From NCBI RefSeq assembly GCF_025232395.1, contig NZ_CP065938.1, forward strand, positions 1,364,001 to 1,428,000: a DNA stretch of 64,000 bases, written 5' to 3'. This DNA is from Taurinivorans muris. Lineage in GTDB: Bacteria > Desulfobacterota > Desulfovibrionia > Desulfovibrionales > Desulfovibrionaceae. Of the stretch, positions 39,510-41,649 are shown piece after piece. Each line of letters begins with the position of its first letter. The first letter of the stretch is position 1. The position numbers and the translations under genes are program-made. Below the pieces are notes generated by a model. The model searched no databases. It was given only the letters and a program-made list of their open reading frames with translations, and was not told the DNA's origin.

Positions 39510-39520
39510 AACCATACTCC

Positions 39521-41649
39521 TTAGTTTTTTCTCTCATGCTTGAGGTCGTAACACCTATATATCTCCGCCCCAAACTCTTTCATAAGCAATTGAATTTGCG
39601 CGTTATTTTCAGCCTTTTCACGCAATTCGTCATCACTTACCAGTTCATACGCAACAATGGTCGACTGTATTTTAACGGTTCTTTGCAAAAAAGTACAGAG
39701 CAAATTTTCAAGCTGGTTTTTCACTTTGCCAAAAATTGTCGCTTGAGGTCCGGAAGAAACTTTAATAAAACACCGTTCTTTAGTCAACACAACGTTCAGC
39801 CCCTGCAAAAGAGGAATATACTCCATAGGAAAGCCGTGTTCCTCGCAATAGGATAAGAACGCCGTCCAATCGAGCGCTTCTTTTTCTTCCCCGGCAAGCG
39901 CGTTTTCCGAAAACAAATCCAGAAAAACATCTCCGCCGTGGGCAGACACGGCAAGGCGGGCTTCCTCATCGGAATAATCGCCCGGTTCTTCCGCTTCCTG
40001 AAAACCTGACTCGGAAAAAGCGTTTGAAAACGCCGTCAAAGGTGTATTGATGATATTTTCAGCGTCAATGGGAATATTTTTTTCCGGGCTTGAACTTTTA
40101 AACGCCCGATTTTGGTTTTCAGCCTGCGCCTTTCGGGCTTCTTGGATTTTCTGCTTATAATCCGGAACAATTTCCTTTTTCGGCTGTGCCGCTAAAGGGT
40201 TTCCGACTGAAACATTTTCCGTATTTTCTCTTGTTTCAGCAGAAAAACTTTCTTTTGCAAGCGCGTTTTCTTTTGCAAAAACAGGGACGGCGAAACGTTT
40301 TTTTCCTTCTTCGCCAAGCCTGCCGGCATTATCCGCATCGCAAGGTTCTTTGGCTTTTTTAGCCTGCTCTATGATATTCTGAAATTCCCGCTTTTTGGCT
40401 TCGACAATCTCTGTTTCATCGGAATACGATTTGTGAGAAACTGTTTCCGCCCCCTTTTCCGCAAGAATGTTCTCGCAAGGGGCAGCTACTCCCCCGGCAT
40501 ACCGCCTTTCCGCGTATCCGGTACAAGAACTTTTTCAAGAGGAAGCAAACGGGGCAGCAGCGTTAAATTCAGGAGCAAAAGCTCAAGCGCGGCAGCAGGT
40601 TCGTAGCTCTGCAAAATACGGCGTTGGTTTTCCAAAACCATCTGCCATGCCGCATGCAGAAAAGCCGTGGAAAAATAGCTTGCGTTTTCTTCAAGACGCA
40701 CCACCTCACGCAAAGGCAAATCGGATAGAATTTCTTTTCCAGCTTCCTTAAGCATGAACAAATTACGCAGCAAACGCACAAGTTCCCCCAAAAAGAAACC
40801 GATATCAACACCTTCAGCCAGCACATCACGCACAAGCACAGTCGTTTTTGCGACATCTTGCTTCTGCATGGCCTGCAAGAGCCTGTCCATGACTTCAATG
40901 CCCGCAAGTCCCAAGGTCTGGCGCACAATGCGGCTCTCCAGCCTGTACCCCTCGACATCGTCGGGAGAAAGCGCCAAACACTGCCCGAGCAAAGACATGG
41001 AATCACGCACGCTGCCCATGGCGCGGCGAGCGATAAGGGACAGGGCTTCCTCTTCAAAGGCGATATGTTCTTTTTGCAGAACAGAAGCCAAATGTTTTTC
41101 AATGCTCTGTTCGGGCACTTGTTTAAAAACATAGAGCTGGCAGCGGCTCAAAATGGTAATGGGAAATTTATGCTGTTCCGTCGTGGCAAGAATGAAAACA
41201 ACGCCGCGGGGAGGTTCTTCCAACGTTTTCAATAACGCATTGAACGCTTCCTTTGTCAGCATGTGGGCTTCATCGATGATGATAACCTTATACCGCCCTT
41301 CCAAAGGCGAATAACCGATAGATTCCCTGAGCCTGCGCACATCGTCAATGCCCCGGTTCGACGCTCCGTCAATTTCAACGACATCGACAAACGCCCCCTG
41401 CGTGATACGTCTGCACGCTTCACACTCGTTGCAGGGTTCGGCTGTCGGGGCGTTTGCGCAATTCAATGCTTTGGCAAAAATTCTTGCAAGCGTGGTTTTT
41501 CCCACCCCTCTTGTTCCGCTCAGCAGATACGCGGGCGCGACCTTATCCTGCAAAGAAGCGAGGGAAAGCACCTTTTTTACGGTATCCTGCCCCACAACTT
41601 CGGCAAACGTTTGAGGACGGTATTTTGCTGCAAGGGAAATATTCGCCAT
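39521..41649 (-). CDS. dnaX: DNA polymerase III subunits tau and gamma, with probable programmed -1 frameshift
   Basis: Clamp-loader ATPase. Frame 0 runs from 41649 to a TAG at 40486 and gives 387 residues (gamma-sized). It has Walker A GTRGVGKTT, four zinc cysteines (CANAP..CNECEAC), IIDEAHML, and ILSRCQ, and ends at the collar domain III. The -1 frame is open from just before that TAG to 39521 and I translated it fully: a Lys/Glu/Ala-rich linker, then a folded C-terminal domain (LDWTAFLSYCEEHGFPMEYIPLLQG...), as expected for tau domains IV-V. A -1 shift gives a tau of about 709 residues. Without a shift only gamma is made. Either programmed frameshifting as in E. coli or a one-base indel in the G-run explains this. 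14 bases after ilvE. Confidence 0.88.
40449..40511 (-). promoter_or_regulatory. Candidate -1 ribosomal frameshift signal in dnaX
   Basis: Read on the minus strand in order: a Shine-Dalgarno-like GGAAAGG (40511-40505), nine bases, a run of five G in CCG-GGG-GAG (40495-40491), the frame-0 stop TAG (40488-40486), five bases after GAG, then a hairpin. The hairpin has GCCCCTT (from 40483) pairing with AAGGGGGC and inner arms GCGAG/CTTGC. The -1 frame is closed upstream by TGA overlapping CTT-GAA at about 40533, so the shift must occur within about 16 codons before the TAG. Confidence 0.6.

Follow-up and report, generated by a model that had tools for sequence, protein, structure and literature searches.

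The dnaX gene of Taurinivorans muris is divided between two reading frames: the initial frame stops after a gamma-sized product, and the region that would be specific to tau continues in the -1 frame. This raises the question of whether the gene has been wrongly sequenced, is decaying, has become two genes, or is decoded by a change of frame that yields tau. The matter concerns replication directly: the helicase and the polymerase core are both in contact with tau in E. coli (PMC11470591, in the part of that paper used here). A sequence-only reading of the locus had favoured programmed frameshifting. We compared the locus with dnaX genes of the same genus and of the family. By the window we mean the whole analysed stretch of 64,000 nucleotides, and positions refer to it unless another reference is given.

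Organization of dnaX in the window

The gene lies on the minus strand and starts with the ATG at 41649. Its 0 frame (40486..41649) comprises 387 codons and ends with ATG CCG GGG GAG TAG, the TAG (40488-40486) terminating gamma. The putative shift site G_GGG_GAG occupies 40489..40495 (minus strand), with a run of exactly five Gs at 40495-40491. From the slip site the -1 frame (GGG GGA GTA GCT GCC ...; 39521..40495, minus strand) is open for 324 codons up to the TAA at 39523-39521, and it would encode a tau-specific linker and C-terminal domain. In the gamma region 22 of the 379 codons of the -1 frame are stops, so 324 stop-free codons would not be expected by chance. The predicted products are a gamma of 387 aa (43.0 kDa) and a -1 shifted tau of 709 aa (78.9 kDa), and the predicted tryptic peptide across the shifted junction is GGMPGGVAAPCENILAEK. 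The coordinates and the translation thus agree with the two-frame layout of the sequence-only reading and with its sizes of about 43 and 78 kDa.

The short product has the domains of a clamp-loader ATPase: PF13177, PF22608 and PF12169, i.e., the AAA+ ATPase, the lid and domain III, the last of which ends at residue 372. In the NCBI gamma/tau model NF011520 (624 positions) it matches positions 1-371. The -1 frame matches positions 484-612 of the same model, weakly (E 0.0018) and in the correct order. If annotation takes no account of the shift, such a dnaX would presumably be called truncated.

The tau stop sits within TAAGGAGTATG (39513-39523) and overlaps what is probably the Shine-Dalgarno sequence of the following ORF, presumably YbaB. 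Because of this overlap, coupling of the next gene to the translation of tau is conceivable.

Conservation of the junction within the genus

The genus was represented by six genomes of five species: the window genome (G000, a single 2.17-Mb contig), another genome of that species, and one genome each of four other species (G005, G002, G003, G004). Five of the six are in 20-250 contigs and are probably drafts or MAGs. All six show the frame break in one and the same direction and a run of exactly five Gs, although in G003 the gene is spread over two contigs. In each genome the 0-frame stop and the open -1 frame overlap at a single site.

The junction follows one pattern throughout: NNG GGG GAG, a 0-frame stop within one more codon, exactly 6 nt, and CCCC. 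The 0-frame junctions of the five species are CCG GGG GAG TAG, CAG GGG GAG TAG, CTG GGG GAG TAA, TCG GGG GAG CGT TAG and TTG GGG GAG TAG, the one with the extra codon CGT belonging to G003. The heptamer, the 6-nt spacer and the CCCC are constant in all five species, over a range of locus GC from 31 to 49%. Upstream of the shift site the -1 frame is open for only 13 codons in G000, 3 in G005, 6 in G002, 2 in G003 and 1 in G004. As it opens only one codon upstream in G004, the shift in that species is pinned to TTG GGG GAG.

The composite GGGGGAG-N6-CCCC occurs at dnaX in all six genomes. Its sole other place, in four of the six, is antisense to tmRNA in every case; in the window genome this copy lies outside the window, at 1446489-1446505 of G000, where the tmRNA has the tag ANDDYAYAYAA.

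These comparisons bear on the simplest explanation of the split, a sequencing or assembly error in which six Gs were read as five, or else a recent loss-of-function mutation. One added G would indeed restore a single frame in the window, and the sequence-only reading had kept a missing G as its alternative. However, five Gs are present in all six genomes of five species, so a sequencing error is rejected; moreover, the tau part is under purifying selection (see below). With 38 differences in 4161 bases, the two genomes of the window species are not copies of one assembly. Single-frame relatives with six Gs are absent from the genus, and the single-frame sister sequences outside it whose linkers were printed have a different linker rather than a six-G version of this one. 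We regard error or recent mutation as having a practically negligible probability.

The hairpin and the upstream element

Downstream of the shift site a hairpin is predicted at 40451..40482 (minus strand), with an outer stem CCCCTT/AAGGGG, an inner stem GCGAGA/TCTTGC and a folding energy of -15.6 kcal/mol. It had been placed five bases after the site; the hairpin itself stands, and the distance between GAG and 40482 is corrected to 6 nt. Structures that stimulate -1 frameshifting are found 5-9 nt downstream, and the hairpin of E. coli dnaX lies at a similarly short distance. In the genus a downstream structure is conserved at 6 nt in 6/6 genomes. Folded from the CCCC, the other species give -14.7 (G005), -14.5 (G002), -14.9 (G003) and -13.1 kcal/mol (G004).

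The arms of the hairpin vary between species with pairing retained. The outer arms are CCCCC/GGGGG in G005 and G003 and an eight-pair CCCCTTTC/GAAAGGGG in G004, and the inner arms found besides that of the window are GCAAG/CTTGC and GGTAAG/CTTGCC. In the MAFFT alignment of the hairpin the inner stems of G002 and G004 were judged to be misplaced; compensatory changes were therefore assessed by inspection of the folds. When the -1 frame was resampled synonymously, an equally stable fold appeared in 6 (G000), 105 (G005), 2 (G002), 108 (G003) and 47 (G004) of 2000 draws. The hairpin is thus strongly supported in two species but only modestly in the other three, since resampling matches it in about 5% of draws in G003 and G005 and in 2% in G004.

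The window also has a candidate Shine-Dalgarno-like element, AAGGCGG, at 40502..40508 (minus strand). Each species has a stretch able to pair with the anti-Shine-Dalgarno sequence that starts 11-17 nt before the site, so its position is only loosely kept. In G000 the best 8-mer pairs with -7.0 kcal/mol, which is matched by 11% of windows of that size within the gene; the corresponding values are 31% in G005, 37% in G003, under 1% in G002 and 3% in G004. We are less sure of this element than of the hairpin: a purine-rich stretch is present, as had been claimed, and its pairing rises above the background in two of the five species, is a borderline case in that of the window and is weak in the remaining two.

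The -1 frame as the end of tau

A profile of the -1 frames of the genus matches a profile of the tau C-termini of nine single-frame relatives with a probability of 98.5 and E 2.9e-15. Its start is conserved as well, with GGVxAP and LAxxGA in four of the five species. The AlphaFold model of the tau-only part is mostly of good confidence at about residues 205-321, whereas the linker is modelled with low confidence (mean pLDDT 57.7). Other searches gave nothing: the tau part has no Pfam match above the cut-off, PDB sequence and fold searches with it returned nothing significant, and domain V of E. coli tau is absent among the best 50 of 716 PDB search rows. The delta-subunit model PF06144 had no match in the six genus genomes; it also missed 7 of 14 controls and is therefore uninformative.

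One could suppose that only gamma is made and that the tau part is decaying behind a vestigial site. As a whole the tau-only part is poorly conserved, with 24-58% identity between species, as decay would have it. Against this, pN is lower than pS in 15 of 15 genome pairs, the C-terminal 125 aa are 72-77% identical among G000, G005 and G003, and the frame is open for 299-416 codons in the five species. The differences within the tau-only part between the two genomes of the window species number 0, 1 and 5 at codon positions 1, 2 and 3. We give the vestigial explanation scarcely any weight. Judged by profile similarity and by the pattern of substitutions, the -1 frame is a genuine tau end under purifying selection.

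A genuine tau end could also be made without any shift, if the gene had undergone fission into gamma and a separate C-terminal protein started internally. Four of the five species do have a possible start (ATG, ATG, TTG or GTG) after 13-15 codons of the -1 frame, within the 3' arm of the hairpin or adjoining it, though by eye none of these is preceded by a Shine-Dalgarno sequence. In both genomes of the window species, however, none of the first 152 codons counted from the slip site is ATG, GTG or TTG, while the start of the tau part is conserved. By the usual start codons, therefore, the conserved beginning of tau can be reached there only via the shift, and an internal start is ruled out as a general explanation. 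Fission would also leave unexplained the invariant heptamer, the constant spacing and a -1 frame that is open up to the shift site. We consider fission very unlikely.

Probable programmed -1 frameshifting

In our assessment, the dnaX of this genus very probably relies on programmed -1 ribosomal frameshifting at G_GGG_GAG, the products being inverted relative to E. coli. The earlier programmed-frameshift interpretation is thus supported, together with the five-G run, the 0-frame stop and the -1 direction on which it was based, all of which are seen in the window and recur throughout the genus along with the hairpin. We infer from the genomes that the shift takes place during translation and that both proteins are produced, and the efficiency of the shift belongs to the same category.

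The decoding may be pictured as follows. Ribosomes that stay in frame would read NNG GGG GAG and stop at once (in G003 after one more codon), releasing gamma. A fraction of ribosomes would be slowed by the hairpin 6 nt downstream, perhaps aided by the Shine-Dalgarno-like element upstream, and would slip back by one base. The tRNA-Gly on GGG could then re-pair fully with the GGG that overlaps it one base upstream. In the -1 frame this codon is followed by GGA, which would be a perfect match for tRNA-Gly(UCC), or on which tRNA-Glu(UUC) could be held by a central G:U pair. Shifted ribosomes would continue through the linker and the C-terminal domain, giving tau.

The site departs from the heptamer rule X_XXZ_ZZN, as full re-pairing is available on GGG only and tRNA-Glu is left with a central G:U pair. 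Rules measured in E. coli would rate G_GGG_GAG a poor site. In the measurements, as far as the available part of the source goes, a G_GG.G tetramer was above background, which was ascribed to Shine-Dalgarno-like initiation and not to frameshifting. All six genus genomes nevertheless appear to obtain tau only by frameshifting, at a G-run that is poor by these rules.

The same two products could arise if RNA polymerase added a sixth G in part of the messages, so that tau would be translated in one frame. Such transcriptional slippage has been shown for the dnaX of Thermus, and it has been proposed for inverted dnaX genes with poly-A runs, arguably down to seven As. However, the runs reported to cause it often have at least eight identical bases or combine two shorter runs, whereas here the run is five Gs, and never longer, in 6/6 genomes. 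In addition, a conserved hairpin at a fixed 6 nt downstream would not yet have been made while the polymerase is on the G-run, and hence it could not act on a polymerase slipping there. Transcriptional slippage seems unlikely to us, and programmed ribosomal frameshifting is the reading that we carry forward.

Comparison with known systems

The likeness to E. coli dnaX, which has an A_AAA_AAG site, a Shine-Dalgarno-like element and a hairpin, extends to the gene, the direction of the shift, the combination of shift site and hairpin, and the gamma and tau products (PMC5009743 and PMC3711429, in the parts used here). Common to both systems is also a second site codon with a final G, decoded by a U34 tRNA. 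Of the three-part layout claimed by the sequence-only reading, the shift site, with G in place of A, and the hairpin are shared with E. coli. Two features set it apart from that model: the heptamer is non-canonical (five Gs and AG against six As and G), and the logic of the products is inverted. E. coli makes tau by unshifted reading and gamma by the shift, whereas in the genus the 0 frame gives gamma and tau would come from the shift. The upstream element is also weaker in the genus.

Inverted dnaX genes have already been published. Antonov et al. 2013 (PMC3711429, consulted in part) described two-ORF dnaX genes that need a -1 event for tau (17 genes in 12 genera), and the inverted arrangement was reviewed by Atkins et al. 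2016 (PMC5009743, likewise in part). As in the genus, -1 recoding is needed for tau and the gamma stop comes right after the site. Unlike in the genus, which has five Gs and a hairpin, 12 of the 17 genes have poly-A runs of 7-10, ascribed to transcriptional slippage (for the shorter runs only "arguably"); the other five have motifs that are not described in the parts of the paper used here and may be of other kinds. Thermus thermophilus dnaX likewise gives two products, but there the run is of nine As, RNA polymerase slips and the 0 frame encodes tau, according to the sources in the portions used.

The closest motif found is the -1 motif GGGGGAA of phages, called "fivetwo" in PRFect (PMC10885494), at which, in the part of that paper used here, tRNA-Glu is proposed to re-pair on GGA by G:U. 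A GGGGGAA site is also reported in the tail assembly genes of corynephage phi16 (PMC5506516, in the part used). These sites share with G_GGG_GAG the G_GGG_GA layout, the slip of tRNA-Gly and the placement of tRNA-Glu on GGA by G:U. They differ in being phage genes with GAA, whereas the genus has a cellular replication gene with GAG. If our reading is true, a cellular gene joins a type of site reported in phages.

No dnaX with a G-run was found in the recoding literature as represented by the accessible parts of PMC5009743, PMC3711429, PMC4066793, PMC10507020, PMC10885494 and PMC5506516. Inverted dnaX being known, mostly with poly-A, what appears to be new here, judging from the genomes, is a G-run site with a hairpin at a fixed spacing.

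Distribution in the family

We searched 288 genomes of the family and found dnaX at E 1e-60 or better in 267, the loci of at least 12 genomes lying outside the matches listed. Among the matches listed, complete dnaX frames outside the genus have about 495-940 codons in a single frame. In a tree of 67 DnaX rows (59 different) the genus is recovered as a single clade (100/99). Its sister group consists of 22 rows of Mailhella type, 16 of them distinct, and each of these reads through this place in one frame. Mailhella is also the nearest named kin of the window genome.

Short DnaX frames outside the genus were considered as possible further splits. L027, L030, L151 and 11 of 13 further ones end at contig ends; L358 and L359 are pieces that run from a contig end to the natural end of the gene; L146-L148, L150, L152 and L153 are short single-frame genes; and the dnaX of G314 was found unsplit. 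Thus the fetched short frames are contig ends, partial pieces or short single-frame genes, with two exceptions.

The first exception is G022, of another genus (L037:2600-3240), in which the 0 frame ends with GCA AAA AAG CCC TAA and the -1 frame has 197 codons from the site. Its candidate site A_AAA_AAG is followed after 8 nt by a hairpin (-17.0), and an upstream GGGGGAT could act as a Shine-Dalgarno sequence. The second is the uncultured Desulfovibrio RUG514 (L049:4179-4739, the same sequence as L149), with GCG GGG AAC TGA and a -1 frame that leads through 187 codons to an end resembling that of tau. Here CCCC occurs 9 nt after the site, and folding gave no stable hairpin starting there. Both lie elsewhere in the tree than the genus, on branches flagged as long, and their splits likely have separate origins, to judge by these sequences. 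Two further Desulfovibrionaceae may thus have split dnaX on their own, at A_AAA_AAG and G_GGG_AAC; since each is represented by one genome, an error is possible.

A G_GGG_GAG in the same phase occurs at codon 454 of L138 (G240), a single-frame dnaX of Mailhella type. There the -1 frame closes after 6 codons, and some G+C-rich folding is predicted in the vicinity (-15.5 and -12.8 for windows of 40 nt). Neither the neighbour L139 nor any other sister row that was scanned has this heptamer, which is probably due to chance. Single-frame dnaX genes of L024, L044, L146, L147 and L148 contain an in-frame A_AAA_AAA with a -1 stop within 3-9 codons; these are candidate sites of the E. coli or Thermus type, at which gamma would be made by shifting.

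The shift site and the tRNA pool

The tRNA genes were compared in two genomes of the genus, one outgroup (G254) and G022. Among 55 tRNA places in the window genome, the only Gly anticodons are GCC and UCC and the only Glu anticodon is UUC, and both tRNA-Lys are present. The T. muris paper counts 56 tRNA genes (PMC10507020, in the part used), so one may be missed here. G005, which is 91% complete, has the same Gly and Glu set. Both genus genomes thus come without tRNA-Gly(CCC) and tRNA-Glu(CUC), and GGG and GAG are seemingly read only by U34 wobble tRNAs, which would presumably make the site slippery. The single-frame Mailhella-type genome G254 has both tRNA-Gly(CCC) and tRNA-Glu(CUC). This difference in tRNA pools is suggestive extra support.

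We propose, tentatively and with rather more doubt than confidence, that the shift site follows the tRNA pool: U34-only decoding may have made G_GGG_GAG slippery enough for an obligatory -1 shift that would supply the replisome with all its tau. Such a mechanism would be the G-run equivalent of an explanation already in print (Atkins et al., PMC5009743, in the part used), in which the E. coli site depends on a sole tRNA-Lys that is weak on AAG, and Thermus, with two tRNA-Lys, uses transcriptional slippage. G022 is also without tRNA-Gly(CCC) and tRNA-Glu(CUC), yet its candidate site is A_AAA_AAG. The expectation that this genome lacks tRNA-Lys(CUU) proved wrong, and the presence of that tRNA alongside an A_AAA_AAG site argues against a simple tRNA rule. 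If the proposal is true, the role of tRNA gene content in deciding the route of dnaX recoding becomes directly testable. The window genome also contains an xsc gene and four Ile-Ala tRNA pairs.
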